IMG/VR virus record: IMGVR_UViG_3300030451_000692
Location: 1-30,030 of that record
Source of the DNA: a virus
Length of the DNA stretch: 30,030 nucleotides
Direction: 5' to 3' (one strand)
Numbering within the stretch: the first letter of the stretch is position 1; each line of letters begins with the position of its first letter. Both the position numbers and the translations under genes were made by a program. The notes beneath the pieces are model-generated. The model was not told where the DNA came from. It made no database searches and saw nothing but the letters and a program-made list of their open reading frames with translations. Of the stretch, positions 2,624 to 20,814 are shown piece by piece.

Positions 2624-2731
2624 TTATAACAATAATTTTTTTACTGTTTTGTTATTTAGTTTTTTTAAATACTCTTGCAACTTTGTTACATTTTGTTGCT
2701 TAGGTTTGTAGGTTTTCTTTACAGTACCCAT
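2624..2731 (-). CDS. Small basic hypothetical protein (35 aa)
   Basis: Starts MGTVKKTYKPKQQNVTKLQE and ends in a Lys/Leu-rich helix (11 Lys of 35). The ATG at 2731 lies 12 nt inside the end of the connector gene. Its 3' half coincides with the promoter-like element at 2629..2653, which would explain the A-rich codons there. Probably a real small gene, but alternatively this is only regulatory spacer. Confidence 0.45.
   Translation of the reverse strand: MGTVKKTYKPKQQNVTKLQEYLKKLNNKTVKKLLL
2629..2653 (-). promoter_or_regulatory. Bipartite promoter-like element (AACAAAA-N11-TTATTGT)
   Basis: On the minus strand AACAAAA (2653..2647), 11 nt, then TTATTGT (2635..2629), 6 nt before the ATG at 2622. 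The same layout occurs at 5309, 7575, 9875 and 20790, with a weaker upstream box at 18060. The last 20 nt up to and including the ATG differ by one base from those before the 18053 start. Confidence 0.55.
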
Positions 2732-3219
2732 CCTCCGAAAATATCTTTATCAGGATATACATCCTCGTTATTGTTTGTATAGTATTCAGGAAACTTACTT
2801 CCTGCATTAAATGACAAATAGTCAATTAGTCTATCTGTATAATATTGCGCTGTATTGCGTTCTTTTTCTAATAGATAGTCTACTTCTTCTTTAGTAACAC
2901 CCTCTGCGTTTTCGCTTGTATGTTTAAAAACACCTTTATTAGATATTGATATATTTGCAAATGGTAAGTATTCTACCATCGCCCAATGTATTAAACAAGG
3001 TTTTACCCAGTCATTAACCAAAGACAAATAGTCACCAGTTAGTGTACTAGCAACAATATCTGCTTGTATTTTATTCATAAGGTCAGTACCTAAGTAATTT
3101 TCTATATGCTTGTCTTGCGCTATTTTGATGTATTGTATAAACTTGTCTGTGTCCACATTGCCATTCATAGCTGTGAACTTTACTACATCCTTTCTTGTTA
3201 TTAATAATGCTTCTGCCAT
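2719..3219 (-). CDS. Head-tail connector / adaptor protein (DUF6712-like)
   Basis: 166 residues, mostly helical, no signal or membrane segment. It resembles a family common in Bacteroidota phages immediately after the portal gene: an N-terminal RKDVVKFTAMNGNVD segment, then ENYLGTDL, HWAMVEYLPFA, KHTSENAEGVTKEEVDYLLE, and the C-terminal PDKDIFGGWVL. This family is thought to sit at the head-tail joint, like the gp6-type adaptors. It starts 3 nt after the portal stop, consistent with co-translation. Family placement is from memory; role is inferred from family and location. Confidence 0.8.
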   Translation of the reverse strand: MAEALLITRKDVVKFTAMNGNVDTDKFIQYIKIAQDKHIENYLGTDLMNKIQADIVASTLTGDYLSLVNDWVKPCLIHWAMVEYLPFANISISNKGVFKHTSENAEGVTKEEVDYLLEKERNTAQYYTDRLIDYLSFNAGSKFPEYYTNNNEDVYPDKDIFGGWVL

Positions 3220-3222
3220 TTC

Positions 3223-4959
3223 TTACTTATTTACAAAACCCTGATTAGGCATATCCTTTGGTCGTTTAGCTACCTTTGGGTCATTAACTTCAGGTTTAAA
3301 TCCTTCTTTTCTTGCTTTGTTTACACTAACTTCTGCTCTAGGGTTTTTAACATCAGGTTTTACACCTTTTGCCATATACGTTTTACGCATCCAAAAATGA
3401 TGACAAGCACCACCGCCTTTGTAAAGCCATATATCGTACGTTGCTGCGCCATTTAAACCCCATCCTGCATTTACCGCTCTTTCACTCATTGCCATAATAT
3501 CTTCTTTGCGGTATATTTTTTTAGCAGCAATCATTTTTTTACAAAAGTCACGAGATACAGACTTACCACCTTTCATTGTTTCTTTTAATGGTGCATACTG
3601 ATAACGTACTTTAAACTTCATATCGTCTACCTCACCATCTTGTTCGCTTTTAGCATTAGGTTTCGCAGAACCAGTCGATGCCAACCCTATCATTTTATCA
3701 AGTGCATCTTCTTGGTCGTAGTCAACTGGTCTTTCATCCACTAATTCCCATTCTTCTAAATCTTCATCTTCGCCTATCTCTATTAGTTCGTCTGCGATAT
3801 GGTCAGGTATTTTTTCATCACTTAGTTTTACACCTGTTTCTTCTTCTCTTGCTTCGTCTGTTATAGCGTTGTCTGTTTCTATAAATTCTAGCGGTTGTAA
3901 CGTCCTAAAATATAATTTTAGACTTATTTCATTAACTGCTAATATTTGCTCAATAGAATCAATTATAAGGTCTTGATATGGTCTAATAGTAATGTTTTGG
4001 AAAAGTAAACTCGCTGTTTTTATTTCGTCAGCGTTATTTCCTAGTCCATTATTTCCATCTCTAATACCTAATAGTAAAGGTGATGTAACTCTGTGTGCAA
4101 CCATTAGTTTTCTAGCACATTCGTTTGCTAAATACTCATAATGTGCAGGTGCATCATTTAACGGTACATCATCTATTGTAGTTTTGCTTTCTGCGTTGTT
4201 GTTAAAAGCAATAATTACTTTTTCACCTCTTGCACCTGTAAGTTTGTGCATTACATCATTCTTGATGCTTAGTTGTTTTTCTCTATCAGGTACACCGTTG
4301 TTAAAGTTTACAACCTTAGTACCACTAAAACCATTTTGTACATCGTTTATTAAGTAGTCTGCTACTTCTGATTCTAGTTCAGCGTATGCTAAACCACCTT
4401 GATAGTCAACAGGGCAGTAATAGTCGTAACCGCTTACATATTTTTTTACTATTTCTATTTCAGGTTCTTTACCGTTACCATAACCAAATGCTGCTATTCT
4501 TTTTGGTTTGTCACTTTGTTTTATCTTTTCCCAATTAGGATGATAGTAGTATGCTTCTATATATCCATCTTCATTACACTTTTCTGCTCGTAATGTTTGT
4601 CTAGGAAAATGTTCTGCTCTTACTACTCTACCATCTTTGTATAAAACTTGAAAAGATGCTTCACCTAACATTTTTAAGTCAAGTGCTACTTTCTTCAAAC
4701 ACTTATCGTGAAATATAGAACGTAGTGCAGCATATTCGTCTGTTTTCGTACTACTATCTAAGGCATCTAAACCTTTACCATATATCATATTAGACACACC
4801 ATTTATTACAGCATTGTTTGTTGTGCTGTTGGTGTATAGGTCTATAAGGTATTGGTAGTAATTATTGTTATCACCGTAAGCTACCCAGTCTTTCTTTTTG
4901 TCCTCTTGTACTTTGGGTCTGTTATAGGATGATAAATTAACTATATGTAAATTCTCCAT
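3223..4959 (-). CDS. Phage portal protein with an extra C-terminal domain
   Basis: 578 residues. Residues 1-375 have portal features: an N-terminal WVAYGDNNNYYQYLIDLY segment, MIYGKGLDALD, then LLGIRDGNNGLGNNADEI and QNITIRPYQDLIIDSIEQIL, the conserved clip/stem region of PBSX/HK97-like portals. Twelve copies would form the DNA channel. After an acidic linker (about 385-440) comes a second domain (about 450-545) with FCKKMIAAKKIYRKEDIMAM, NAGWGLNGAATYDIWLYKGG and GACHHFWMRKTYMAK, including a Cys-His-His cluster. A basic tail follows. This extension is seen on other flavobacterial portals as far as I recall, but its function is unknown. The gene sits downstream of the capsid gene, not before it. 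Confidence 0.88.
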   Translation of the reverse strand: MENLHIVNLSSYNRPKVQEDKKKDWVAYGDNNNYYQYLIDLYTNSTTNNAVINGVSNMIYGKGLDALDSSTKTDEYAALRSIFHDKCLKKVALDLKMLGEASFQVLYKDGRVVRAEHFPRQTLRAEKCNEDGYIEAYYYHPNWEKIKQSDKPKRIAAFGYGNGKEPEIEIVKKYVSGYDYYCPVDYQGGLAYAELESEVADYLINDVQNGFSGTKVVNFNNGVPDREKQLSIKNDVMHKLTGARGEKVIIAFNNNAESKTTIDDVPLNDAPAHYEYLANECARKLMVAHRVTSPLLLGIRDGNNGLGNNADEIKTASLLFQNITIRPYQDLIIDSIEQILAVNEISLKLYFRTLQPLEFIETDNAITDEAREEETGVKLSDEKIPDHIADELIEIGEDEDLEEWELVDERPVDYDQEDALDKMIGLASTGSAKPNAKSEQDGEVDDMKFKVRYQYAPLKETMKGGKSVSRDFCKKMIAAKKIYRKEDIMAMSERAVNAGWGLNGAATYDIWLYKGGGACHHFWMRKTYMAKGVKPDVKNPRAEVSVNKARKEGFKPEVNDPKVAKRPKDMPNQGFVNK

Positions 4960-4960
4960 A

Positions 4961-5302
4961 TTATAAAACTATAAAATCGTTGTCAATACTGTTTTCCGTA
5001 TATGCGTTGTTATTTACAGAATAAGTAGATACTGTTTGATTTGTGCAAAATATTTTATCCCTAAATATTAGTTCGCTTCCTGCTGTAATTTCTAAATTAT
5101 ACATCGTGTCCTCTACTAGCGTAAAAGTATCGCTATGCTGATAATAATAATCATTAGCAGTAAAGGATGTAGATGTGCTACTATAAACTTCTGTATTCGT
5201 AGTTTCATTAGTTATCTTAATTGTATAGGTTGTTCCTTGCGTGTAAGAACGTGGTATAAAATTAAAGGTTTGGCTGTCACTTGTGTTTTGTAAAACAATC
5301 AT
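4961..5302 (-). CDS. Conserved hypothetical virion-region protein (113 aa)
   Basis: Begins MIVLQNTSDSQTFNFIPRSY followed by TYTIKITNETTNTEVYSSTS, a beta-sandwich-like, Thr/Ser-rich protein without signal peptide. The frame is open further upstream to an ATG at 5359, but that ATG lies inside the stem of a terminator hairpin. The ATG at 5302 sits 6 nt after a TTATTGT box as at other structural genes, so 5302 is chosen. Between the tube-like gene and the portal; possibly a head decoration or joining protein. Confidence 0.7.
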   Translation of the reverse strand: MIVLQNTSDSQTFNFIPRSYTQGTTYTIKITNETTNTEVYSSTSTSFTANDYYYQHSDTFTLVEDTMYNLEITAGSELIFRDKIFCTNQTVSTYSVNNNAYTENSIDNDFIVL

Positions 5303-5308
5303 ATATAT

Positions 5309-5333
5309 ACAATAAAATAACTTTTGTTTTGTT
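5309..5333 (-). promoter_or_regulatory. Bipartite promoter-like element upstream of 5302
   Basis: Minus strand AACAAAA (5333..5327), 11 nt, TTATTGT (5315..5309), then 6 nt to ATG. It lies 11 nt downstream of an intrinsic terminator, the expected place for restarting transcription. Confidence 0.6.
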
Positions 5334-5344
5334 AAGTTAAAAGC

Positions 5345-5368
5345 AAAAAAAAGGGGCATATAGCCCCC
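5345..5368 (-). terminator. Intrinsic terminator after the tube-like gene
   Basis: Minus strand reads GGGGC-TATAT-GCCCC followed by eight T (5352..5345): a 5-bp GC stem, 5-nt loop and U tract. It starts about 24 nt beyond the stop of the upstream gene. Confidence 0.85.
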
Positions 5369-5391
5369 TCTTTATCCAAGTCAAATTCTAG

Positions 5392-5940
5392 TTACGAGTT
5401 AGTACCTTCTGTAACTGTAACTGTTCCTGTCAATCCTGCAAATGGGTCTGCTTCAGTAGCACCTTCTAAAAAGTTAGCAGGTATTTGCTCTTGTGCATTT
5501 AGAGTAAGAGTATATCCACTCAAATCACCCATTGCTGCACCTGTAACAATAGTTCCACCTGTTACCTCTGCTCCGTGTTCTGCACCCATTAAAAATGCGT
5601 TACCGTTGTAATCGTGTACTACAACGTGTGGTCTACCGTAAGATAATAATTTTAATTCTTTATTATCTTCTTTTGACAATTTTTTAAGTGTTAAATTTAA
5701 AGTTTGGTCAAAGAAAGTAGTTCCGTTTTCTCTTGAAGATGTAATAGCTTGTTCAAAGCTACTATTACCTTTTATTTCGTATTTGTAGGCAGTAACAGTA
5801 CCCAAGTCATCAATTACGTCTGTGTCTGTGGCATCGTAAGCAATAGTAATATCTCCGTAGTCTAAGAAATATACCGCTTTGATTCCACCTACTACGTCTT
5901 TGCAGGGTTCTTTTCTACCTCTAGTTAAATCACAAGCCAT
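5392..5940 (-). CDS. Putative major tail tube / virion structural protein
   Basis: 182 residues starting MACDLTRGRKEPCKDVVGGI, a start I associate with Bacteroidota phage structural proteins close to the capsid gene. The body is beta-rich (IKGNSSFEQAITSSRENGTT, FFDQTLNLTLKKLS, GRPHVVVHDYNGNAFLMGAE), consistent with a tube-type beta sandwich. It is isolated by terminators on both sides (5954..5988 upstream, 5345..5368 downstream), suggesting separately tuned expression as for abundant virion proteins. Tail tube is the best guess; a minor capsid or decoration protein is possible. Confidence 0.65.
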   Translation of the reverse strand: MACDLTRGRKEPCKDVVGGIKAVYFLDYGDITIAYDATDTDVIDDLGTVTAYKYEIKGNSSFEQAITSSRENGTTFFDQTLNLTLKKLSKEDNKELKLLSYGRPHVVVHDYNGNAFLMGAEHGAEVTGGTIVTGAAMGDLSGYTLTLNAQEQIPANFLEGATEADPFAGLTGTVTVTEGTNS

Positions 5941-5953
5941 ATTTATTTTTATT

Positions 5954-5988
5954 AAAAAAGGGTAGGCAGATATAAAACCACCTACCCT
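5954..5988 (-). terminator. Intrinsic terminator after the major capsid gene
   Basis: Minus strand GGGTAGG, 14-nt loop, CCTACCC, then six T (5959..5954). It is located 24 nt past the capsid stop, and could limit read-through or protect the capsid mRNA 3' end. Confidence 0.8.
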
Positions 5989-6011
5989 CTTTGGTTAATT
6001 TTTATTTACTC

Positions 6012-6965
6012 TTAGTTAGCAGAGTTAGTGATACCGTATGTTACAATATCTTCAACAATTCCGTATTGTACACCTGCTGTAAATCGCATTACAACACGAA
6101 CGTTGTCAGAACCATCTAGGTCGCTCATATCTAGTACTTTTACTTCGTTGTGGTCAGCTAGTAGACCAGTTCCAAAGAACAAGTTAGACTTTTCAGAAGC
6201 AATAGCTGTGTTGTCAGACATACCGTTTGCAACAAACAAGCTAACACCGTCAAATGATAGGCTTCCGTTATTCCACCATTGTGTACCCATTGCGTTTGTA
6301 CCTGCTGCACCAAGACCTGAAGCACCAAATCCACCTAACGCTCTTACATAAGCACGAGCAATGTTTTGTGAAATATATACGTTTAAGTCCTCACTTCCGT
6401 AAAGTGCAGAAGGGATAGCATCAACAATTTTACCTAATTCAGTAATTACGTTAGAAGCTGTTACAGTTGTACCTGCTACTTCTTGTCCTGATGGTAAGTC
6501 TGCATCTAATGCTAGTGTAGTTTCAAACCCATCAAATTGACCGTTGTTTGAAGTTGCACCTGCAAAAATAGACTGCTCTGTACGCTGTGCTACTTTAGAA
6601 GCAACGTGCGCAATTAAAAAGTCAGAAAAAGAAGGTGGTAAATCGTGATGTGCTGAATAGCCCATTTGGATAGCTTCCCAATCTGAAATAAAGTCTTTCT
6701 TACATAGTTGTAAGTTTACTTGCTGAAATTCTGGTTGTAGAACTCTTTCAGTAAGTGTAATTGTAGAAGTTGCATCAAAATCACAAGTAGCATCTTTCAC
6801 GATGTCGTTAGTAGATACTTTCTTGATAACTTCTTTGAACTTTACATTTGGTTTTACAGTAATACCACCGTTTTCGATAGTAGAACCGCTTAATAAAGCA
6901 GCAGAGATGTACTGTCCTGCACTTTCTCCTGCATAAGTAGTTGTAATACTAGTTGTAGTTGCCAT
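6012..6965 (-). CDS. Major capsid protein
   Basis: 317 residues, soluble. It carries features of an HK97-fold major capsid protein: a flexible N-terminus, an E-loop-like segment (ERVLQPEFQQVNLQLCKKDF), a long helical segment (DFLIAHVASKVAQRTEQSIF) and a Gly/Ala-rich A-domain (FGASGLGAAGTNAMG). The C-terminal strand VVMRFTAGVQYGIVEDIVTY is typical. It resembles capsid proteins annotated in flavobacterial phages. It lies 5 nt after an acidic, scaffold-like gene and is followed by its own terminator, both usual for capsid genes. Confidence 0.85.
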   Translation of the reverse strand: MATTTSITTTYAGESAGQYISAALLSGSTIENGGITVKPNVKFKEVIKKVSTNDIVKDATCDFDATSTITLTERVLQPEFQQVNLQLCKKDFISDWEAIQMGYSAHHDLPPSFSDFLIAHVASKVAQRTEQSIFAGATSNNGQFDGFETTLALDADLPSGQEVAGTTVTASNVITELGKIVDAIPSALYGSEDLNVYISQNIARAYVRALGGFGASGLGAAGTNAMGTQWWNNGSLSFDGVSLFVANGMSDNTAIASEKSNLFFGTGLLADHNEVKVLDMSDLDGSDNVRVVMRFTAGVQYGIVEDIVTYGITNSAN

Positions 6966-6970
6966 TTTTA

Positions 6971-7567
6971 TTATTTATTAAAATTTCCAATTTTGTTAAG
7001 TACTCTATCAAATGTAGTAGTAACTCTTTTTTGTGCGTATAGTTTTAAGTTTGCTGTGTCAGCTTCAGCTTCAGGGTTGTGGTTAACTTTTTCAACTGGC
7101 TCTTCAACAGCAGACAATTCTTCTGCTACTGGCTCTTCTTGAACCTCTTCTTGTGGCTCTTCAGAACTCATTTCCTCTTTGTCTTTAATCATAGCTTTGA
7201 TTTCTTCTATCATTTCTTTGACCTCTGACAATTCTTCTTTAGTTGCGTATTGCATCTCTTCTTTTTCTTCCTCTGCTGCTTCAACTTCTTCAGCAGGTTC
7301 TTCTTCCTCTTCAGCAGCACCGATAGAAGCAATAATACCTTCTTCTTCTACTTTGAGTAATTCACCATCTTCTAAAGTATAATCGCCAACAGGCAACGCT
7401 ACTTTTTCATCTTCGGTGACAATAAATACTTCTGCACCTGCTTCAAATGATTCCGATTCTATTACAGTACCATTTTCAAGTGTAGCCTGTGCCAATTTAA
7501 CTTCCTCTACCTCTGCATCGATAGATAGAAGTTCTTTTGCTTTTGATAAAATTTCTGTTGCTTTCAT
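6971..7567 (-). CDS. Acidic coiled-coil protein, putative scaffold or capsid-associated protein
   Basis: 198 residues, extremely Glu-rich. The first 85 residues form a small beta domain (VKLAQATLENGTVIESESFE, VGDYTLEDGELLKVEEEGI). Residues about 87-165 are a highly acidic helical segment with KEELSEVKEMIEEIKAMIKD. The basic tail KVNHNPEAEADTANLKLYAQ plus KRVTTTFDRVLNKIG resembles the C-terminal capsid-binding helix of scaffolds. It is directly upstream of the major capsid gene, where scaffolds sit. The start at 7567 lies 7 nt after a TTATTGT box. Confidence 0.65.
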   Translation of the reverse strand: MKATEILSKAKELLSIDAEVEEVKLAQATLENGTVIESESFEAGAEVFIVTEDEKVALPVGDYTLEDGELLKVEEEGIIASIGAAEEEEEPAEEVEAAEEEKEEMQYATKEELSEVKEMIEEIKAMIKDKEEMSSEEPQEEVQEEPVAEELSAVEEPVEKVNHNPEAEADTANLKLYAQKRVTTTFDRVLNKIGNFNK

Positions 7568-7574
7568 ATATTAT

Positions 7575-7599
7575 ACAATAAGTTATTAAGTTGTTTGTT
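7575..7599 (-). promoter_or_regulatory. Bipartite promoter-like element upstream of the scaffold-capsid genes
   Basis: Minus strand AACAAAC (7599..7593), 11 nt, TTATTGT (7581..7575), 7 nt to the ATG at 7567. It occupies most of the 38-nt gap between genes in an otherwise gapless region. Confidence 0.55.
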
Positions 7600-7605
7600 A
7601 TATTT

Positions 7606-8079
7606 TTAGGCTTTCTGTTGGATGATAAACCACTCTGTTCCGTTACCCCATATCTTAATGCCTTCGTATGCTCTGTTTAAGTCAAAAGCACTATTAGCAC
7701 CATCTAAGTTTTGTGAACCAAAAGGAGTAAGGTTAGCGTGTGTTGAATTGCTAAATGTAGAATCTGTGATAAAACGCTTTGTTCTGTTTAGGTTCTTAGA
7801 AGCAGTTACATCAGGCAAAGTAAGTGTTGCTGTTCCATTTCCACCACTCCAAGAAAGTACAATTAGTTCAGCTTCATCATAAGTTGATGCACCTATGTCA
7901 TAAGTATTACCTGCACTAACTGTAAGTGTGGTAGGTTCTAGGTGGTTTATAATAAAGTGTTGTACGTCTGTAAGACTTGTTTTTTTAGTAGTACCTGTTT
8001 GTACAATAGGTAAATCTTCGCTTCCTGTTATGTTAGCTGCTGCTACTGCTGTTAGTTGACTTATTTTTTTGTCAGCCAT
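7606..8079 (-). CDS. Virion-associated protein with fibre-like N-terminus
   Basis: 157 residues. The N-terminal ADKKISQLTAVAAANITGSE and DLPIVQTGTTKKTSLTDVQ resembles the short N-terminal motif shared by many phage fibre and appendage proteins. The rest is Thr/Asn-rich beta structure (TLTVSAGNTYDIG, VLSWSGGNGTATLTLPDVTA, GIKIWGNGTEWFIIQQK). Its position among head genes favours a head fibre or decoration protein rather than a tail fibre. Start overlaps the stop of the upstream Cys-rich gene by one base. Confidence 0.65.
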   Translation of the reverse strand: MADKKISQLTAVAAANITGSEDLPIVQTGTTKKTSLTDVQHFIINHLEPTTLTVSAGNTYDIGASTYDEAELIVLSWSGGNGTATLTLPDVTASKNLNRTKRFITDSTFSNSTHANLTPFGSQNLDGANSAFDLNRAYEGIKIWGNGTEWFIIQQKA

Positions 8080-9874: not shown

Positions 9875-9899
9875 ACAATAATATTTAGGTGTTTTTGTT
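9875..9899 (-). promoter_or_regulatory. Bipartite promoter-like element upstream of the protease gene
   Basis: Minus strand AACAAAA (9899..9893), 11 nt, TTATTGT (9881..9875), 6 nt to ATG. The upstream box overlaps the tape-measure stop codon. It lies at the boundary between tail and head modules. Confidence 0.6.
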
Positions 9900-11520
9900 A
9901 ACCTAGCGATGCGCTTTGTACTATATTTCTATCTAATGCCTGTGCGTTTGTTACTTCGTTACTTACAACAAATGCTTTTACTGGTTGTTGTTCTCTTTCG
10001 CCTATTGCTTGTGCTAATTGGTTTTCAGGTGAAGCACCTACTATATTAAATGCAGGGGCTTGTGATGTTGCTACTGATGCACCTCTTGGTGTTGATATAC
10101 CACCACCTGAAAAACCTCCTGAAAAGCCTACTGCACTAGCTGCTGACTTAGTAGCTGCAACAGCAGATTTAACACTAGATATAATTCCTGCTGCTTGTGC
10201 TGCAAATGCTATAAGTAAAGGAATATTTTGTGGGAAACCCACTCTAGCTGTTGCTGATGCACCTTTTGCTGTATCTACTTGTGCTTCTGCTGCTCTCAAA
10301 GTTATCCTTTCTAATGTTGCTTTAGCTTCATTAATTTGTTCTTTAATTAACATAGCTTGTTTTGCAATAAATACAGCCCTACCTATTTCAGTTTCTTGTC
10401 CTGCTGCATCTATAATAGCATCTAAATTGTTTTTTATACCTTCTCTTTCTTCTTGCCTTAATTCTGCTTTTAATTCAGCATTTTCTATTGCCTTTTCTTT
10501 TTCTTCATCTAACAAATCAATTCTCTCACGCTCTAACGAATTTACATTTATTAATTGCTCACTTCTAAAACCTTCTATTTGCGCAAGTATTCCCTCACGT
10601 TCTGCTTTAGCTTCTAATAGTGCAATTTGATTTTCATCATTTCCGTTTTTCTCAAACTGCGCTTGGGCTGCTTTTATAACTGCATCAGCATTAGCTAACA
10701 TTAATTTTTCTTGTTCATCTAGAACTGCTGCAAGTTTGTTATTAGCCTCAATACGCTCTGCTATTGTTTTTGATTCATCATCTCGTATTTGTCTTAACTT
10801 TTCAGCTTCTCTATCTTTTTGTTCTAATATTATACGGTTTTGTGCAATACCTACTTCTGCTGCTCTATTTAATTCAACAGTTTCCGCTGCTGCTTTTATT
10901 GTAGATATTGTATAGTCAGTTATACCTTTAACTACTGTTGGTACTGTTTCTGCTACTTTGTCAAAAGTATTATTAACACCTGTTACAACGTCAAATAATT
11001 CTTTACCTGCGCTTTTTGCACTTTCTGCTGCACCTGCAAAATCACCTTGAAATACTTTTACAACAGCATCTCCTAAAAACCCTAAAGCATCTAAAGCACT
11101 TTTTACTCGCTCTACAATATTATTTACTATCGCCTGACCAAAGTTTTGTATTGATTGTACAGGGTTCTCAAATAAACCTTTAAAATAGTCTATAACCGTA
11201 CCAACGTTTCTATCTAAAAAATTAAAGAAATCATTAAACAATAAAGACACTGCTTCAAAAGCAGTATTAAAAACATTAACAACTTTTTGGTTTTGTTGAA
11301 ATACCTCAACAAGTTTTTTAAAGGCAGCGACAGCAAATCCAATACCTGCTGCTTTTATTGCAAGTCCTATCCCTTTAAAACCTTTAGCAACTCCACCTGT
11401 GGTTTTTTTAACGTCCTCTAAATTTTTGTCAATGTTTTGTGCTGTTTTAGCAACACCTTCTAACTCTTTTTCAGCTTTGCCAACTCTAGCTTCTATCTCT
11501 ATTATTTTCTTTTCTGCCAT
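9898..11520 (-). CDS. Tape-measure-like tail protein
   Basis: 540 residues. An N-terminal coiled coil (IEIEARVGKAEKELEGVAKT) is followed by a hydrophobic, Gly/Ala-rich stretch (FKGIGLAIKAAGIGFAVAAF) and amphipathic repeats. A long Glu/Ala/Lys coiled coil spans about 220-400, and a second small-residue segment (IPLLIAFAAQAAGIISSVKS, then a GGFSGGGIST run) spans about 430-480. This architecture is typical of tail length tape measures. At 540 aa it predicts a short tail by the roughly 1.5 Å per residue rule (about 80 nm, inferred). It is fourth from the chaperone in the tail block. Start overlaps the end of the 51-aa upstream gene. Confidence 0.8.
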   Translation of the reverse strand: MAEKKIIEIEARVGKAEKELEGVAKTAQNIDKNLEDVKKTTGGVAKGFKGIGLAIKAAGIGFAVAAFKKLVEVFQQNQKVVNVFNTAFEAVSLLFNDFFNFLDRNVGTVIDYFKGLFENPVQSIQNFGQAIVNNIVERVKSALDALGFLGDAVVKVFQGDFAGAAESAKSAGKELFDVVTGVNNTFDKVAETVPTVVKGITDYTISTIKAAAETVELNRAAEVGIAQNRIILEQKDREAEKLRQIRDDESKTIAERIEANNKLAAVLDEQEKLMLANADAVIKAAQAQFEKNGNDENQIALLEAKAEREGILAQIEGFRSEQLINVNSLERERIDLLDEEKEKAIENAELKAELRQEEREGIKNNLDAIIDAAGQETEIGRAVFIAKQAMLIKEQINEAKATLERITLRAAEAQVDTAKGASATARVGFPQNIPLLIAFAAQAAGIISSVKSAVAATKSAASAVGFSGGFSGGGISTPRGASVATSQAPAFNIVGASPENQLAQAIGEREQQPVKAFVVSNEVTNAQALDRNIVQSASLG

Positions 11521-14814: not shown

Positions 14815-16353
14815 TTATTCTATTTGTACGTCACTTCCACTTGCTTGTGTATCACAATTTACTTTTGCTGTGCTTAATATTATTCCAAACTCGCTAATTT
14901 GTACAACCTTGTACGGTGCGTTTATATCTCCACCTGCACTTGCAGTAGGTGCTGTTGTTGCTATATACCAACGGTTACCCCCATTATAAGGTGTGTTATT
15001 TAAACATACTTGCTGACCTAAAGCAGAACTACCACTTACTGCTAATAATGCTGAATAAACAAGACCACAATGACCACCTGAATTTGTTACACCTGCTGAT
15101 ATGTAAAACGTACCTGATAAACCTGCACAGGGGTTAAACTCGGCAGGTTGTTCCCTAGTTATTGTGCATAATATATTATTACCTGTGTTGCTGAATCCTG
15201 AAGGTACTGTTATTGTTACTCTTATGTTTCTTGATGTATTTACGGTTACTTTGTCAAACGCTGTGTCGTTATCTGTACCTGTGTCTGCAAAGAAATCACA
15301 GCTTATACCATCTATAGTTACACTAGCATCACCTGTTACAATATCACCTGTGTTTGCTATTCTAAATCCGCTGTATCTAATTCTTTCATCACCACAAGCT
15401 ATTGAGGGTAATGTTGTACCTGCCTGTGTAACATCCTTTTCACATAACAAGTATTCGCTTAAAGTAGTTGAACCCTGCGGTGTTGCATTTGTATATGCAC
15501 TAGGTACTCTAAAATACATTTTTAAAGTAACTGTTCTTGAACTTGTGCTTGTGTTTGCAGGGTAGTTTGTAGAAGTATAATCTACTGCACCAACATATAC
15601 TTTATAAAGGTCTGCAACCGCTGTGTAAGATGGTCTGTTAATTACACCTGCTTGTGATATACTACCACCTGTTAAATTTATACCACCATCACCTGTACAT
15701 CCTAATGCTCCTGTTGCTGCTGCTGTTACTGTAAACGAATTTGATGTTGTTGTACAAGTATCATCGTTATTACTTGCTGTTACAGTAAAGGTTGCACTTA
15801 CTCCTGTTGAGGTTGTTGTAAAGGATAACGTTTGAGATACACCTGTACCACTAAGTGAAAAGTCTATTGCTGATGAACCAATTCTTGTTACGGTGTATTC
15901 TTTAAATGTAGCACCACTTTGTTGTGTAAAAAAACTACCTAAACTTACTGTTTGTGCTGAAGTATCTAGGTTTGTTATATCCGATATAGTACCTGCAAAA
16001 GTTGCCATATTAGTATTGGTACTAGGGTTACAAGACGCATCAGGTGGAAACTGTGTAGCTGATGCTGTACAAATTATTGTACCATCATCTGAGTTACTAA
16101 ATTTATCAGGTATTTTAATTGTGTAGTCTACTGTTCTAGCTACACTAGAATCGCCAATATTTAATGCTGCAAAACTTTCGTGTTCTCTATCTATTATTGT
16201 TCCGTTCAATAATGTAGGTTCTGTAATGCTACCATCACTAGCTACACTAAAGTTAGCCAGTCCTGCAAGTTCACAAGTTAATGCACCCTCTGCTAATGTA
16301 GGTGCTTCTGATTCTAAGTAAAACGGACTTCTAGCGTTAATCTTTGTACTCAT
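14815..16353 (-). CDS. Large beta-rich, Cys-containing tail protein (Ig-like repeats)
   Basis: 512 residues. It begins MSTKINARSPFYLESEAPTL, a start I associate with flavobacterial phage structural proteins. It contains several Ig-like or cadherin-like units of about 90-100 residues (for example TVTASNNDDTCTTTSNSFTV and VTIDGISCDFFADTGTDND) and about 15 cysteines. No membrane or catalytic motif. Probably an exposed tail ornament or adhesin. It overlaps the preceding gene by 4 nt. Confidence 0.65.
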   Translation of the reverse strand: MSTKINARSPFYLESEAPTLAEGALTCELAGLANFSVASDGSITEPTLLNGTIIDREHESFAALNIGDSSVARTVDYTIKIPDKFSNSDDGTIICTASATQFPPDASCNPSTNTNMATFAGTISDITNLDTSAQTVSLGSFFTQQSGATFKEYTVTRIGSSAIDFSLSGTGVSQTLSFTTTSTGVSATFTVTASNNDDTCTTTSNSFTVTAAATGALGCTGDGGINLTGGSISQAGVINRPSYTAVADLYKVYVGAVDYTSTNYPANTSTSSRTVTLKMYFRVPSAYTNATPQGSTTLSEYLLCEKDVTQAGTTLPSIACGDERIRYSGFRIANTGDIVTGDASVTIDGISCDFFADTGTDNDTAFDKVTVNTSRNIRVTITVPSGFSNTGNNILCTITREQPAEFNPCAGLSGTFYISAGVTNSGGHCGLVYSALLAVSGSSALGQQVCLNNTPYNGGNRWYIATTAPTASAGGDINAPYKVVQISEFGIILSTAKVNCDTQASGSDVQIE

Positions 16354-16868
16354 CTCAATCTTTTGTTGTTAAATGTAAAAGCTAAAAAATCTTCTACGTC
16401 TAAACCGTATGCTTCTACTAATTCGTTTGGTAATCTTTCGAATGCTTTTTCAAATGGTTTTGTAAAAAACAAACTTGGTTTTATTCCTTTCTCAAATATG
16501 CTTTTAGATATTATATAACTCATAGACTTGTAAGATAGAAACCTACCTTTTGCATCTCTAAACTGAAACCCCCTTTTGCCTATCCATTTTTCTAATGACT
16601 TTGCAGGTGGTCGTTTAGATGTATAACTAAATGGTGTGTTATACTTTTTCTTTGTACCACTTACACCTTTGTCTTGAAACACACCGTAATCTTCCATTAC
16701 AAACGAAAGACTAAAAGATGTTTTGCCTACCTCAACATCACCATCTAAACTTTTATACAATTTGCTATTTACGTTTTTCTTACCTCTAGTAAGATTTGTT
16801 CTAGCTTGTTGTATAACGTATTTCTTGAACTCGTTTAGTACATTATATGTATAACCCTTTGTTAGCAT
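16350..16868 (-). CDS. Putative tail completion / HK97 gp10-like protein
   Basis: 172 residues, basic, mixed alpha/beta. An N-terminal helix (EFKKYVIQQARTNLTRGKKN) is followed by a beta region (TSFSLSFVMEDYGVFQDKGV), a Gly/Lys loop, and the conserved-looking stretch KGRFLSYKSMSYIISKSIFE plus KGIKPSLFFTKPFEKAFERL. This pattern (long helix, 'YG.F.DKG', terminal 'PFL..P...') fits gp10-like proteins that join heads and tails. It lies between two other small tail-completion-like genes and the Ig-like gene. Confidence 0.65.
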   Translation of the reverse strand: MLTKGYTYNVLNEFKKYVIQQARTNLTRGKKNVNSKLYKSLDGDVEVGKTSFSLSFVMEDYGVFQDKGVSGTKKKYNTPFSYTSKRPPAKSLEKWIGKRGFQFRDAKGRFLSYKSMSYIISKSIFEKGIKPSLFFTKPFEKAFERLPNELVEAYGLDVEDFLAFTFNNKRLR

Positions 16869-17314
16869 ATTGTCATATCGTTAGGTATAAGCACATCAAA
16901 TGTTGCTGCCCATCCTGCTAGTTTGTTTTCAAATCTATCTACAAAAGGTTCACAAGTAACCTCACCCTCTACTTGGTATTTGTCGGTGTATAAGTCACCA
17001 CGTTGTAGTAAAGCTAATAACCTGTTTTGTATTGCTAGTTGTGTATTTAGTACGTCTTGTTCGTTGTCATTTCCTACAAAATCGTCAGCTTCTTTTTTGC
17101 TTTCGTCTACAATGTCCATTGACAATACACTAATATTAAACCTTAACGTTTTTGTACCAACAGCTACATTGTTTACTATGATATGCGATAAAGGAAATAT
17201 AGTTTGTTTGTTTAGGTCTATATCGTCTAGGCTACCATACGTTACAGTATTTACAAATGGTTCTGCTTGTAGCGTGTCTTTTATTTTGTCTGTTAAATCG
17301 TAAAAGCCTGTCAT
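16862..17314 (-). CDS. Putative tail terminator / completion protein
   Basis: 150 residues. The N-terminal helix FYDLTDKIKDTLQAEPFVNT precedes the strands FPLSHIIVNNVAVGTKTLRF and NISVLSMDIVDESK. The C-terminal strand ENKLAGWAATFDVLIPNDM has the helix-then-sandwich outline of tail terminator (gpU/Ne1-like) proteins. ATG overlaps the stop of the transframe chaperone product as ATGA, so it is coupled to the frameshifted, not the unshifted, product. Confidence 0.65.
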   Translation of the reverse strand: MTGFYDLTDKIKDTLQAEPFVNTVTYGSLDDIDLNKQTIFPLSHIIVNNVAVGTKTLRFNISVLSMDIVDESKKEADDFVGNDNEQDVLNTQLAIQNRLLALLQRGDLYTDKYQVEGEVTCEPFVDRFENKLAGWAATFDVLIPNDMTIC

Positions 17315-18053
17315 CTTCTTTTTATTTGTTGCTTTTCTAGTTCTATCTTTTCTTTCTCAAATGCTAAATGCAATAAACAAGTGTGAAAGTTTAATTTTGT
17401 TATATCGTCATATTTTGTAACATCCCCTTTAGCGATGCCATAGATGCTTTGATACCAACCCCATTTTCTGCTAAAGTTTGACGTTGCTCCATAGTCATTT
17501 TGTTCGGTAGTTCCTTGCTCAAATAATTCAGGGTAGTTTGTAGCAACTCTTTGTTTAAATGATAAAAAAAAACCATTGAACTCATTACAACATCAAGTGG
17601 CATCTTCTTCATAACATCTGCTGCATCTAATCCTTTGTATTCCTCTATTTGATATTTATCTTTTTGCTTTAGCTTTACAGGTCTGTATAAAACAGCCATT
17701 GCTTTGTGCATTGTTTGCCAACTACTAAAGTTCTCATCTAAGTCTATATACTCACCTAAACTCATATCGTCTAATACAGGTATAAAACCGTATTCTACAC
17801 CTTGTAGTGTAAACGTTGGTATTAGTTCTTCTTTTGTTGCAAATAAACCGTTAAGGTCATTTAAAATACTTTTAACGTAGTTGTATCTTATTTTTGCTAC
17901 ATCTCTTAAATTAAGGTTGCAAAATATCTCAACCATTTTGTGCATCAGGAAATTTGTATCCTGATTCTCTTCTGTATTTATCTTTTCAAACCTTTGATAT
18001 TGTTCTAAAGTTATTTCAGATAAATCCGTTGGTACTAGTATATCAACTTTCAT
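17311..18053 (-). CDS. Tail assembly chaperone, long product by programmed -1 frameshift (GT-like, 247 aa)
   Basis: Residues 1-163 are read in the first frame. A -1 shift at the T9 run (17564..17572) then adds 84 residues, starting LSFKQRVATNYPELFEQG and including FSRKWGWYQSIYGIAKGDV and ITKLNFHTCLLHLAFEKEK. It ends at TGA 17313..17311. The -1 frame has no stop from the T9 run to that TGA. It ends by overlapping the next gene's ATG, and its WGWY...IY.(L/I)A composition is protein-like, unlike a shadow frame. This is the G/GT arrangement of lambda-like tail chaperones. Frame arithmetic checks: 18054-17313 = 741, a multiple of 3. Confidence 0.75.
17400..18053 (-). CDS. Tail assembly chaperone, short product (G-like, 217 aa)
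   Basis: 217 residues, acidic N-terminal half, helical (LVPTDLSEITLEQYQRFEKI, MHKMVEIFCNLNLRDVAKIR, FTLQGVEYGFIPVLDDMSLG). The unshifted C-terminus is LSKELPNKMTMEQRQTLAEN through KASMASLKGMLQN. Chaperones of this kind coat the tape measure and recruit tube protein during tail assembly. Two coding frames overlap from 17400 to 17564, with the alternative -1 product listed separately. The gene is preceded by a terminator and a promoter-like element, and its start is 6 nt past a TTATTGT box. Confidence 0.8.
   Translation of the reverse strand: MKVDILVPTDLSEITLEQYQRFEKINTEENQDTNFLMHKMVEIFCNLNLRDVAKIRYNYVKSILNDLNGLFATKEELIPTFTLQGVEYGFIPVLDDMSLGEYIDLDENFSSWQTMHKAMAVLYRPVKLKQKDKYQIEEYKGLDAADVMKKMPLDVVMSSMVFFYHLNKELLQTTLNYLSKELPNKMTMEQRQTLAENGVGIKASMASLKGMLQNMTI
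17564..17572 (-). promoter_or_regulatory. Slippery run T9 for -1 ribosomal frameshifting
   Basis: On the minus strand nine T in a row in the codons GTT TTT TTT TAT. A U-UUU-UUU heptamer is a classical -1 slippery sequence because both tRNAs re-pair perfectly. The zero frame continues 54 codons to a stop and the -1 frame continues 84. Confidence 0.65.
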
Positions 18054-18059
18054 ATAATA

Positions 18060-18084
18060 ACAATAATTTTAATTAAAATATGTA
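18060..18084 (-). promoter_or_regulatory. Promoter-like element upstream of the tail chaperone (weak upstream box)
   Basis: TTATTGT (18066..18060) 6 nt before the ATG at 18053. The upstream box at the right spacing reads TACATAT and matches the AACAAAA consensus in only 4 of 7. The 20 nt ending at the ATG match the site at 2622 in 19 positions. It lies directly behind a terminator. Confidence 0.5.
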
Positions 18085-18086
18085 TA

Positions 18087-18110
18087 AAACAAAAGAGGGG
18101 CATAGCCCCC
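18087..18110 (-). terminator. Intrinsic terminator upstream of the tail module
   Basis: Minus strand GGGGC-TAT-GCCCC then TCTTTTG and a further T run. Short GC stem with 3-nt loop and a broken U tract. It lies between the 80-aa gene and the chaperone gene, separating the terminase block from the tail block. Confidence 0.75.
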
Positions 18111-18147
18111 CTTGTCAAAAAAAACAAAACTTAATATGAAAAAATTC

Positions 18148-18390
18148 CTACTTATAAGAACCGTAGTAGGCACGGTATAGTTCTTCTATTTTATCTTCTA
18201 ACTCTTTACTATTTTGTTTGTACTCTAATTTACCATATTTTTTCTTACCATCCAAATTGACAATTAGTCTTACTGGTGGTGGAGTTTTGCTATAACCTCT
18301 TTTAGTTGGTTTCTGTACAACAAATATCTTATTGTGCCAACACCACGCTTGTATCTCGTGTAGAGGTATGTTTTCGTAAGCATCAAGCAT
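18148..18390 (-). CDS. Conserved-looking hypothetical protein (80 aa)
   Basis: 80 residues, basic. Contains NIPLHEIQAWCWHNKIFVVQ and a proline/Lys segment (KTPPPVRLIVNLDGKKKYGK), then a C-terminal helix ending YRAYYGSYK. The first half could be a small winged-helix or nucleic-acid-binding fold, but that is a guess. The start overlaps the upstream membrane gene by 8 nt. The gene ends before a terminator. Confidence 0.65.
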   Translation of the reverse strand: MLDAYENIPLHEIQAWCWHNKIFVVQKPTKRGYSKTPPPVRLIVNLDGKKKYGKLEYKQNSKELEDKIEELYRAYYGSYK

Positions 18391-18550
18391 ACCAAATAGC
18401 TAACATTAGCCACATCATTACATACATCATAAAATAAGATGTAGCTACTAATAATGCAGCACCTAATATAGTGTTTATTACTCTCTTTCTATTCTGTTTT
18501 GCTGTAATTCGTTTTACTAGCTTGTATTCAAATGTATCTTGTATTCTCAT
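18383..18550 (-). CDS. Small membrane protein (55 aa)
   Basis: ATG at 18550; 55 residues. A basic N-terminal helix (FEYKLVKRITAKQNRKRV) precedes one long or two short hydrophobic segments (INTILGAALLVATSYFMMYV, then MMWLMLAIWYA). Predicted N-in, one or two transmembrane helices. It overlaps the next gene by 8 nt, supporting expression. Role unknown. Confidence 0.6.
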   Translation of the reverse strand: MRIQDTFEYKLVKRITAKQNRKRVINTILGAALLVATSYFMMYVMMWLMLAIWYA

Positions 18551-18562
18551 AATATTATATTT

Positions 18563-18583
18563 AAAAGGGGCATTACTGCCCCC
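18563..18583 (-). terminator. Probable intrinsic terminator after the 72-aa gene
   Basis: Minus strand GGGGCA-GTAA-TGCCCC followed by TTTT. The stem is good (6 bp) but the U tract is short. It lies about 7 nt after the stop at 18591, and 13 nt before the next ATG. Confidence 0.65.
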
Positions 18584-18590
18584 TGTTTTT

Positions 18591-18809
18591 TTAAAATATA
18601 TTTTCCCAACGGTTTTGCATTTCTAATTGTTGTTCCTTTTGTCTTTCAAGAAATTCTGGTAAAGAAAAATCGCCATTGATTACTGACATCGATGTAGGTC
18701 TTTTACCTACTATATCTCTTATTTCCCATCTAGCTTCGTGTATGTCCGAAGAAAATGTTTCAATTACTAAGGGTTGTGTCCCTGCGCCAAAGTGTACTAA
18801 AAGTCTCAT
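18591..18809 (-). CDS. Hypothetical protein (72 aa) behind a duplicated leader
   Basis: 72 residues: MRLLVHFGAGTQPLVIETFS, then SDIHEARWEIRDIVGKRPTS and a Gln-rich C-terminal helix. No family recognised. The gene is preceded by a leader almost identical to that of 22385..22603 and followed by a terminator, so it appears to be an independent transcription unit placed between terminase and tail genes. Confidence 0.65.
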   Translation of the reverse strand: MRLLVHFGAGTQPLVIETFSSDIHEARWEIRDIVGKRPTSMSVINGDFSLPEFLERQKEQQLEMQNRWENIF

Positions 18810-18860
18810 ATTGTTTGTTTTTAATTATAGTGCTAATATATAAACATTTTATTAACTAAA
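18807..18860 (-). promoter_or_regulatory. Duplicated leader/promoter region, copy 2 (ahead of 18809)
   Basis: Shares an exact 18-bp block (plus strand AAACATTTTATTAACTAA, 18842..18859) with 22639..22656, and nearly the whole path to the ATG (CTAATATA, then an AATTATA-like stretch and AACAAACAAT before ATG). On the minus strand TATATTAG resembles the Bacteroidota -7 box TAnnTTTG. No coding potential seen. Confidence 0.6.
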
Positions 18861-18880
18861 AAACTTTTTTACTATTTTTT

Positions 18881-20050
18881 TTAATAAATATGATATTGTC
18901 CTTTATTTGGGTTTTCTAGTTGGTCAGTTAGAACGTATCGAGCAGCATCAATACAATCTGGATGTTCCCCTGATGGTTTTTGTAACGTATTACCTTCTTT
19001 GTCCTTTGCCCATATATAACCTTGTAGTTCACGTTTTAGGTTTCTACTCCTGCTTGTTACATATATCTCATTTTGGTTTATTAGGTTTATACCATATACT
19101 ACGCTATCCCTTCCCTTGCTTACAGGATACACGCTGTGACCATATTGTACAAGTTCAGCTATTGACTTAGGTTCTGCTGAATCTGCTATAATGTTTTCTG
19201 TAATGTTGTTGCTTTGTAGGTATCTACTTATGTCACGGTTTAACATACCTTTCTTATATAGTACCTCATCGTATATATAAGCATCGTTCCATTTGTATAG
19301 TGCTAAAAGTGTTGTGGGGTCTACACTATAACCAAAGTCCATACCGTAGGATAATAACCTTGCTTCTTGTGGTATTGTATCTATTTCTTTCCAGTCAGGT
19401 ATGCAAACACCTTCTAAGCTACCTATCTCACCTAGCCCATATACTCGCCACCAGTTAGCCCAGTATGTTGAGGTTTTTGCTTTGTATTTTGCTTTCTCTA
19501 TCTCGTGTACTATTGTTTGCGGTAGTGCATCGTTATCTTTATAAGTAAGTGTAATAAAGTTTGTGTCAGGTTTACCTATTAGTTCTTTATCTACCCAAAA
19601 CAAAGATGATGGGTTGTAGTCTAACCATATATTACCTGATGTTCTTACTACGAGTTGTTGGTAGGCATCAAAAGGTATATTGTTACACTCATTAATATAA
19701 AGGTCGGTACGCCTAGCACCACGAAGTTTATCAGGCATATCAGTTGAAAAAAACTCAATATAGCTTCCATTTGTAAATGTGTATTTTAAAGTGCTTTTAT
19801 TGTATTGTGTATCCTTATACCTATTAAGACCTTTTAAGATGCCTAAGAAGTCTTTTAAAGCACCTCTACGAAGGTGTGGTATTGATTCACTTACTACGCT
19901 TATTTCTTTTCCTGCGTTTCTTATAGCATAGTCGATAAGTATAAGTAATATGCAAACGGTCTTACCTGCACTCGTGCCACCTCTTACTATTTTGACACGA
20001 TTGCCTAGTTCTCTAAGTTTACTAAGTGCTATTGTTTTTTTGACCTGCAT
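18881..20050 (-). CDS. terL: Terminase large subunit
   Basis: 389 residues; DNA-packaging ATPase and nuclease of the Terminase_3 type. Walker A is at 24-31 (GGTSAGKT). The Walker B-like LYINECNN at 117-124 has Glu121 as the likely catalytic carboxylate. The C-terminal RNase-H-like nuclease has acidic residues at Asp238 (YGMDFGYSVDPTT), Asp290 (IIADSAEPKS) and Asp365/Asp368 (EHPDCIDAARY). All key motifs are intact. At 389 aa it is short compared with about 420-450 in many relatives, mainly by a compact N-terminus. Thirty nt downstream of the small-subunit-like gene. Confidence 0.93.
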   Translation of the reverse strand: MQVKKTIALSKLRELGNRVKIVRGGTSAGKTVCILLILIDYAIRNAGKEISVVSESIPHLRRGALKDFLGILKGLNRYKDTQYNKSTLKYTFTNGSYIEFFSTDMPDKLRGARRTDLYINECNNIPFDAYQQLVVRTSGNIWLDYNPSSLFWVDKELIGKPDTNFITLTYKDNDALPQTIVHEIEKAKYKAKTSTYWANWWRVYGLGEIGSLEGVCIPDWKEIDTIPQEARLLSYGMDFGYSVDPTTLLALYKWNDAYIYDEVLYKKGMLNRDISRYLQSNNITENIIADSAEPKSIAELVQYGHSVYPVSKGRDSVVYGINLINQNEIYVTSRSRNLKRELQGYIWAKDKEGNTLQKPSGEHPDCIDAARYVLTDQLENPNKGQYHIY

Positions 20051-20080
20051 ACGTTTTGCAGAACAGGGTTTAGGTTATCC

Positions 20081-20326
20081 CTAGTCTACAAATAATGGTA
20101 TGTCCTCGTTTATAGTAATGTCTTTTGTTTCACGAGGTTTACCTAGATAATAGTTTAAGTACAGTTGTATCCATTTTAGTTCTCCTGATTCAACTCCCTT
20201 TTTTAGTGCATCAAGTGCTGCATCTTCTAACGGTGATAAACGTTCTACTAGTTTTATTTCTTCACTCTTAGGTTTTCTTCCACCTTTATTTCCTATTGTA
20301 CCTCTGTTATTTTTTCTACCATCCAT
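20081..20326 (-). CDS. Terminase small subunit-like protein
   Basis: 81 residues. The N-terminal Gly/Lys/Arg segment (GRKNNRGTIGNKGGRKPKS) is typical of small terminase-like proteins just before terL. A helical body follows (LVERLSPLEDAALDALKKGV, ELKWIQLYLNYYLGKPRETK) and an acidic tail. Shorter than classical TerS (usually 130-180), so possibly a minimal form. Overlaps the preceding T5orf172 gene by 11 nt; that protein starts with a related Gly/Lys/Arg motif. Confidence 0.65.
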   Translation of the reverse strand: MDGRKNNRGTIGNKGGRKPKSEEIKLVERLSPLEDAALDALKKGVESGELKWIQLYLNYYLGKPRETKDITINEDIPLFVD

Positions 20327-20756
20327 TAGTTGTACTGTATAAATATTCCATAGCTAATAAAACTTCCTCTTCAGTTAAATCAAACCATTCTCCATCTATA
20401 TTTTTATTTTCAAATCTATTGTGTAGATATGATTCAAGTTCAAAAGAATTACTGGATTCAATAACACATAAAGTTTTAATATTAGGATTATGTGTTTTAT
20501 AATTTTTTATTCTTTTATTAAAATTAGTAGTGTAACCTATTTTGTAGGAATTTTCTCCTTTCAATATATAAATATATTCTTGTATATCTTTATATTTTAT
20601 AACTAGTTGTTCAACTGCTTTTTGCTTTATTGCCTCGTTTTTAAGAATCTCTTCTACAAAATCTTGACAATACTTCTGTATATCATAAGTTATTCCAATT
20701 CCTCTTTTTCTTCCTGCACCCTTTCTTGCTCCTCCGTTAAACTTACGTTTGTCCAT
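20316..20756 (-). CDS. GGARKGAGRK-motif protein fused to a T5orf172 / GIY-YIG-like domain
   Basis: 146 residues. Residues 1-20 (MDKRKFNGGARKGAGRKRGI) form the basic motif found at the N-terminus of many small-terminase-like proteins. Residues 60-133 form a T5orf172/MUG113-type GIY-YIG-like domain: YIYILKG (61-67), YKIGYTTN (71-78), Arg82, Glu107 in ELESYLHNRF and EWFDL (123-127). GIY-YIG domains are nucleases of homing and restriction systems; here the candidate Tyr, Arg, His and Glu positions are present. It lies between the DnaA-like gene and terS/terL. It may be a terminase partner, or a nuclease domain captured by a duplicated small-terminase gene. Activity untested. Confidence 0.7.
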   Translation of the reverse strand: MDKRKFNGGARKGAGRKRGIGITYDIQKYCQDFVEEILKNEAIKQKAVEQLVIKYKDIQEYIYILKGENSYKIGYTTNFNKRIKNYKTHNPNIKTLCVIESSNSFELESYLHNRFENKNIDGEWFDLTEEEVLLAMEYLYSTTNGW

Positions 20757-20758
20757 AA

Positions 20759-20785
20759 TCAGTTAAATTCAGTTATCTGATTCAT
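20759..20785 (-). other. Tiny leader ORF (8 codons) after a promoter-like element
   Basis: ATG at 20785 four nt after TTATTGT, reading MNQITEFN then TGA, two nt before the ATG of 20756. It occupies the position of the start codon at the other five element sites. Could be a leader peptide coupling translation into the next gene, or chance. Confidence 0.25.
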
Positions 20786-20789
20786 ATAT

Positions 20790-20814
20790 ACAATAAAATT
20801 TACAGTAAGTTGTT
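20790..20814 (-). promoter_or_regulatory. Bipartite promoter-like element upstream of the terminase block
   Basis: Minus strand AACAACT (20814..20808), 11 nt, TTATTGT (20796..20790). It overlaps the end of the DnaA-like gene. The annotated gene start is 34 nt further down, unlike the other sites, which argues for a promoter rather than a ribosome-binding signal. Confidence 0.5.

Follow-up and report, generated by a model that had tools for sequence, protein, structure and literature searches.

A marine Bacteroidota virus very likely makes its own ECF-like sigma factor for the six promoters of its structural genes

Among the described systems closest to the one treated here, phage 7-11 has about eight bipartite promoters of the form GTAAtg-16-aCTA before its late genes, with transcription starts 6-9 bp from the element, and phage phiEco32 has promoters of the form tAATGTAtA with starts 6-8 bp downstream, its relatives with a distant sigma having different promoters (PMC8948821). 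Two thirds of ECF promoters have AAC in the -35 element, and the -10 specificity of these sigma factors is determined by their loop L3 (PMC4598750). Furthermore, the primary-sigma promoters of Bacteroidota consist of a -33 TTTG and a -7 TAnnTTTG box, and in F. johnsoniae leaders are longer than 10 nt in 87% of the transcripts with a probable promoter, with a mean of 33 (PMC6847099). The DNA discussed here, called the window, is a stretch of 30,030 nt from a marine Bacteroidota virus (positions 1 to 30,030 of IMG/VR record IMGVR_UViG_3300030451_000692), and sequence comparison makes it very likely that this virus produces its own ECF-like sigma factor for the six promoters of its structural genes.

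A search of the window with [AT]ACA-N14-TTATTGT gave six matches, all on the minus strand and all with 11 nt separating the boxes, and none on the other strand (Table 1). These are the six bipartite sites which the first-pass annotation had proposed as a phage-specific late promoter, and its description was accurate in all six coordinates, in the perfect downstream but divergent upstream box at 18084/18060, in the two sites lying directly behind terminators (terminator-like hairpins precede 5333 and 18084), in the copies of TTATTGT inside coding sequence (at about 7419, 11238 and 29339) and in the mismatch to the Bacteroidota -33/-7 consensus, TAnnTTTG being found at none of the six. Its ATG distances of 6-7 nt stand at five sites, but the sixth is 33 nt and not 34.

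Table 1. Putative regulatory features and the sigma factor gene in the window
Feature	Boxes	Positions	Strand	Remarks
Putative late promoter	AACAAAA-N11-TTATTGT	2629..2653	-	Exact match; ATG 2622 at 6 nt; orthologous site in G048
Putative late promoter	AACAAAA-N11-TTATTGT	5309..5333	-	Exact match; ATG 5302 at 6 nt; terminator precedes
Putative late promoter	AACAAAC-N11-TTATTGT	7575..7599	-	One mismatch; ATG 7567 at 7 nt; orthologous position conserved
Putative late promoter	AACAAAA-N11-TTATTGT	9875..9899	-	Exact match; ATG 9868 at 6 nt (Peptidase_S78_2 gene); orthologous position conserved
Putative late promoter	TACATAT-N11-TTATTGT	18060..18084	-	ATG 18053 at 6 nt; terminator precedes
Putative late promoter	AACAACT-N11-TTATTGT	20790..20814	-	Two mismatches; upstream of terminase genes; ATG 20756 at 33 nt
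Intrinsic terminator-like hairpin		5347..5373	-	Just ahead of the 5309 promoter
Intrinsic terminator-like hairpin		18093..18113	-	Just ahead of the 18060 promoter
ECF-like sigma factor gene		24024..24599	-	Family profiles and predicted structure

All six sites lie in the late module and none in the replication region, and the majority of the genes of the window are without the motif. When one or two mismatches are allowed, AACAAA stands at the putative -35 position of five of the six, which would bear out the likeness to ECF-type promoters remarked earlier, and TAC stands at one, the 18060 site, whose upstream box resembles the form of its orthologues in relatives, mostly TACAWAW. The upstream box at 9875..9899 overlaps the stop codon of the preceding gene. 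All 14 class A records that were checked have a site at the orthologous position of 5309, in two cases with TTATTAT. Neither RNA families (Rfam) nor tRNAs (ARAGORN) were found in the window.

The motif is conserved in relatives, as a scan proposed in the first-pass annotation revealed. The gene strand of 159 related loci contains 83 copies of AACAAA.-N11-TTATTGT and the opposite strand none, other spacings give 0-4 matches, and the site density is 8.3 per 100 kb of gene strand vs 0.1 for the other, these sites being homologous and the counts therefore not independent. A blind word count ranked ACAA-N13-TTATT at the top in clade A and in clade B; in a gapped word count across whole loci, conserved coding sequence swamped the signal. 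ATATTGT before the class B protease gene was considered as an exception and rejected, as it sits in coding sequence. A megablast search against cultured phages gave no match, and the capsid protein matched only Nonlabens phages P12024S/L, at 30%. Taken together, the fixed spacing, the gene-strand bias, the conservation, the restriction to the late module and the variable ATG distance argue for the phage-specific late promoter proposed earlier.

The best candidate for the reader of the motif is the product of the gene at 24024-24599, which has 181 aa from ATG 24569 or 191 aa from GTG 24599 and sits among the replication genes. Of 40 family members, all matched PHROG 1740 (sigma factor), 25 matched Pfam Sigma70_r2 and 21 matched r4_2, while the window's own sequence alone gave PHROG 1740 with a weak E value of 0.05 and no Pfam sigma match. 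Its predicted structure has two helical domains with a loose linker, across both of which sigmaE, sigmaH and sigmaL match, and the region 4 model superposes on E. coli sigmaE at 1.8 A over 69 residues. As in group 4 of the ECF sigma factors, only regions 2 and 4 are present, regions 1.1 and 3 being absent. No anti-sigma gene was recognised adjoining it, and a tblastn search of cultured phages with the sigma gave no match. This gene, the joint change of sigma and promoter in relatives and the initiator-like T/purine described below are additions to the first-pass annotation.

It is highly probable, judging from sequence, that the six sites are late promoters for the host RNA polymerase carrying this phage sigma. 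Region 4 would bind the upstream box with AAC as the -35 element, and region 2 would open the DNA and read TTATTGT as the -10 element, the G of which is predicted to be read by Arg58, in a loop ahead of the second half of region 2. Because its gene sits among the replication genes, the sigma would be made first and would then activate the packaging, head and tail genes.

Related viruses have changed their sigma and their late promoters jointly. As in other phage late-sigma systems, a different phage sigma goes with different promoters: in sister-sigma phages TTATTAT or TTATTTT replaces TTATTGT with unchanged spacing, and class B and Gln/Lys58 phages have lost the TTGT half and retained AACAA and the spacing. 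Arg58, placed by the predicted structure in the putative -10-reading loop, is the only well-ordered sigma column tracking the G of TTATTGT, and column 58 changed twice on the tree, both times together with the G, so the link amounts to two events. In addition, the motif is missing from all five orthologous positions in each of three phages that have a foreign sigma although their capsid proteins are 84-85% identical. One of these phages, G050, has two sites with TGCAAA-N15-CGTTA, and G049 and G051 have AAC-N14/15-TAGTTA-like sites. Scans of relatives bearing those sigmas gave a weak signal and their promoters were not firmly identified, so no foreign-sigma motif is claimed; when the G050 pattern was lengthened and used to scan IMG/VR, it returned scattered contigs and no clear family. 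We give an even chance to the broader proposal that in this large family of uncultured Bacteroidota phages a mostly leaderless late regulon is read by a phage ECF-like sigma, that lineages recoded all late promoters with Arg58 going to Gln/Lys and G to A, and that the alleles form mutually insulated classes despite shared capsid genes.

Transcription would start 7 nt past TTATTGT, at a purine that follows a T. This T+6/purine+7 is conserved at 57 sites that have no ATG, a signal which derives mostly from the orthologues of one site, and in class A it coincides with the A of ATG at 72 sites out of 147. The predicted start at ATG-adjacent sites is therefore the A of ATG, in agreement with the near-leaderless transcripts suggested earlier, so the late mRNAs from these sites should be leaderless. 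In the window, five of the six sites would start on the A or at most 1 nt off it, and the terminase site would give a leader of about 27 nt.

Other readings of the motif have to be weighed against the phage-sigma promoter. Since the genome is AT-rich, the matches could be chance similarities, and a scan of the window with three mismatches found 26 against 19.2 expected, which is not significant and therefore by itself gives no support to the motif; TTATTGT alone is weakly enriched (26 vs 17.4). Yet exact minus-strand matches number 3 vs 0.0025 per shuffled window (shuffles counted on both strands), which is about a thousandfold and answers the shuffling comparison suggested in the first-pass annotation, and matches with at most one mismatch number 5 vs 0.145 expected, with a maximum of 3 among 400 shuffles; together with the conserved spacing and strand in relatives this refutes chance, whose probability is practically nil. 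The fifth match obtained when one mismatch is allowed (11273-11297) falls within the 9898-11520 gene and was left out of the site count. The five sites that end 6-7 nt ahead of an ATG would suit a signal for translation initiation or ribosome binding in Bacteroidota genes. Such a role of the motif is nevertheless very unlikely, because the start-codon distance is not fixed, being 33 nt at 20790, 19-34 nt at the orthologues of this small-terminase site and, for the most part, 10-38 nt in the sister clade, class B, against 6-8 nt at most other sites; moreover, most genes of the window lack the motif, and the 25-nt geometry of the box pair and T+6/purine+7 are kept where ATG is absent. The earlier argument from the sixth site is thus strengthened, and as the ATG distance varies by site and by clade, the motif is, on this comparative ground, a promoter and not a ribosome-binding signal.

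Two further readings concern the protein that binds. ACAA-N16-TTGT forms an imperfect dyad, for which reason half-matches to the pattern also arise on the other strand, at 2628 and 9874, and an operator for a repressor or activator dimer could be imagined; the fixed orientation relative to the genes and the one-sided loss of TTGT in class B and Gln/Lys58 phages make this a scarcely credible reading. The promoter could also be recognised by one of the host's alternative sigma factors, or host polymerase could use it with the help of a phage activator, the phage sigma-like protein having another role; several ECF sigma factors coexist in many bacteria (PMC4598750), and the tie between sigma and motif is a comparative one. 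This is unlikely, however, in view of the fact that motif presence and -10 letters follow the phage sigma type, even where capsid proteins are 84-85% identical, and that the letters changed twice together with Arg58. The phage sigma acting with host polymerase is accordingly preferred.

If this is true, it provides a complete and testable late-transcription programme for an abundant phage family of marine Bacteroidota, one for which a literature search found no description; the promoter letters of a whole regulon would have changed along with its sigma, and the pairing of Arg58 with the -10 G would be a concrete prediction of protein-DNA recognition. Natural sets of sigma/promoter pairs, possibly orthogonal, could be useful as expression tools in Bacteroidota. 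Bacteroidota messages are without Shine-Dalgarno sequences and mostly have leaders, and the primary sigma of the phylum is unusual; leaderless messages would be predicted within a phylum of mostly leadered ones.

As in the 7-11/phiEco32-type systems, a recurrent late-gene promoter that is absent from early genes is found here. SaPh711_gp47 of phage 7-11 is, like the sigma proposed here, phage-encoded and used with the host core polymerase, but that phage has other sequences, an enterobacterial host and a much larger size, and the available portion of the source was not found to describe a concerted promoter switch or leaderless placement (PMC8948821). Likewise, gp36 of phiEco32 is a phage sigma for middle/late promoters, but its promoter has a single element and the protein no recognisable region 4 (PMC8948821); here the motif has two elements, and region 4 of the sigma is clear. 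ECF group 4, to which E. coli sigmaE belongs, shares the presence of regions 2 and 4 only, the -35 AAC and a variable region 2 loop for the -10 element, and differs from the phage case in that the gene here lies among replication genes and the -10 TTATTGT is A/T-rich (PMC4598750). Finally, the Bacteroidota primary-sigma promoters differ in their boxes and from the start predicted here on the ATG at most sites, and they and the phage sites probably use the same host core polymerase.

The first-pass annotation had proposed that the motif AACAAAA-N11-TTATTGT is a phage-specific late promoter, and this reading is supported at the sequence level by its fixed spacing, its confinement to one strand, its conservation and its position in the late region. 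All six of the reported sites are present on the minus strand where they had been placed, with the two boxes 11 nt apart. Three matches are exact, as against 0.0025 per dinucleotide-shuffled window, and five are found when up to one mismatch is allowed, as against 0.145 (maximum 3 in 400). In addition, [AT]ACA-N14-TTATTGT, a more general pattern drawn from relatives, picks out these six sites and nothing else in the window of 30,030 bases, with no match on the plus strand. All six lie at or past the terminase region and none is located in the replication region of the window.

The main genes of the window are all on the minus strand, with replication and recombination genes (ERF, DnaB-like helicase, NinG, DnaA-C-like) first, followed by terminase, tail, head and portal. 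The 77-base terminal direct repeat makes it probable that the contig represents a whole genome, of about 29.95 kb, though the record has been treated as possibly partial. Genome matches are to contigs of Bacteroidota metagenome assemblies only and the terminase is similar to those of Flavobacterium phages, which suggests a host among the Bacteroidota, probably a flavobacterial one. The gene that directly follows the 20790 promoter resembles an insertion of the homing-endonuclease type, and between this promoter and the ATG at 20756 lies an eight-codon reading frame, ATGAATCAGATAACTGAATTTAACTGA, whose own ATG is not conserved among the relatives inspected.

Features of the window (motif sites are given by their lower coordinate)
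Feature	Position	Strand	Remark
Motif site	2629	minus	
Motif site	5309	minus	
Motif site	7575	minus	
Motif site	9875	minus	
Motif site	18060	minus	
Motif site	20790	minus	
Terminal direct repeat	1-77 and 29954-30030		77 bases
First gene after 20790 promoter	20316-20756	minus	small-terminase-like start (KGAGRKRG) + GIY-YIG/T5orf172 domain
Intact small terminase-like gene	20081-20326	minus	next after 20316-20756 gene
Eight-codon frame	20785-20759	minus	
Sigma gene	24024-24569	minus	181 residues; 191 from upstream GTG
Near-identical stretches	22604-22660 and 18808-18873	minus	before two small genes

The 159 IMG/VR loci retrieved through similarity of capsid or terminase contain 83 copies of AACAAA.-N11-TTATTGT, all of them on the gene strand, while each of the other spacers from 4 to 23 gives 0-4 matches; since the relatives' sites share ancestry, such counts overstate independence. 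In nearly all of 15 records of class A, the window's clade, four late genes are preceded by the motif at the orthologous position, and the 11-nt spacers there differ among these records. The upstream box at 18060, described earlier as poor, does deviate but is a genuine variant, since it reads TACAWAW in most of the clade. Moreover, a blind gapped-word count of intergenic DNA ranks ACAA-N13-TTATT first in both class A and its sister sigma clade, class B.

The motif is, on this evidence, which like all that follows is comparative, a promoter and not a translation signal. The downstream box lies 6-8 nt from the ATG at most sites; at the small-terminase site this distance is 19-34 nt, and in class B, where the internal geometry is unchanged, it is mostly 10-38 nt. 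Where class A sites have no ATG close by (57 sites), position 6 past TTATTGT is occupied by T in 95% of cases and position 7 by a purine in 91%; this signal, contributed mostly by orthologues of a single site, resembles the usual -1 pyrimidine/+1 purine initiator. At 72 other sites this position is the A of the ATG, and, as an analogy, transcription from the sigma-dependent promoters of phiEco32 and 7-11 begins 6-9 bp from the element (PMC8948821); from both we infer that the late mRNAs would be leaderless. Of the F. johnsoniae transcripts with a probable promoter, 87% have leaders >10 nt (PMC6847099).

The likely reader of the motif is the product of the sigma gene. All 40 aligned family members match PHROG 1740 "RNA polymerase sigma factor", and Pfam sigma-70 regions 2 and 4 are found in 25/40 and 21/40, respectively. 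The structures closest to its predicted model (mean pLDDT 82, pTM 0.44, disordered linker at residues 77-96) are sigmaE, sigmaH and sigmaL, all ECF sigmas. The best whole-protein match is sigmaE (Z 10.7), but the rmsd is 24 A owing to a different placement of the two domains, and the structural evidence therefore counts per domain; the C-terminal domain, superposed on region 4 of sigmaE in its complex with -35 DNA, gives 1.8 A over 69 residues. Two thirds of ECF promoters have AAC at -35, with which the AACAAA box agrees, and -10 specificity of ECF sigmas is set by region 2 loop L3 (PMC4598750). A homologue is present in every terminase locus where the sigma stretch could be found, and no recognisable relative was found in cultured phages (50,697 records).

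Furthermore, sigma and promoter letters vary together. TTATTGT is found at 35/46 distinct class A sites and 0/34 in class B, where 32/34 read TTATTAT or TTATTTT and the sigma is about 50-57% identical to the window's, with Lys at position 58. A third group (L205, L215, L219; Gln or Lys at 58), nested in class A on the tree, has TTATTAT, and its two long records have A for G at 10/10 orthologous sites. The tree needs 2 label changes, as against 19.7 with shuffled labels. When every column was searched for a residue that is invariant in the G class but lost from the two other classes, two came out: Arg58 (R in 36/36 versus Q/Q/K and K in 38/38), the joint Arg58/G change representing two events, and position 92 in the disordered linker.

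Three records with foreign sigmas (G049, G050 and G051; L269-L274) show strong mosaicism relative to the window, with capsid proteins 84-85%, sigmas 30-42% and TerL 26-37% identical. None has a motif site at any of five orthologous positions; therefore, as far as these sequences indicate, the motif is kept with the sigma type and not by capsid similarity alone. Among loci gathered by these foreign sigma types, the density is 0.1-0.4 sites per 100 kb versus 8.3 in class A. In the three records, the residues aligned to position 58 are R, K and I, in sigmas too distant for a one-residue comparison. In G050, TGCAAA-N15-CGTTA occurs at both orthologues of the 5309 and 7575 sites (record positions 23981 and 21709), 7 nt upstream of the ATG in each case, and is possibly the promoter of another sigma class; promoters of foreign-sigma phages are only hinted at.

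The two near-identical stretches of the window read TTAGTTAATAAAATGTTTAT...ATTAG...TATAATT...AAACAAACAAT-ATG and are probably promoters for a host sigma, belonging to another class of expression. Relatives have ten copies of GTTAATAAAATGTTTAT, every one on the gene strand, and one of them continues with TATATTTG, like the -7 element TAnnTTTG of Bacteroidota.

The phage sigma would redirect the host polymerase to the late promoters, a kind of scheme for which phages 7-11 and phiEco32 provide precedents; new here are the phage family and its host phylum, a reader that is ECF-like and has two domains, the near-leaderless placement, and the way in which sigma and late promoters have changed in concert, with a single residue as the candidate for recognition.
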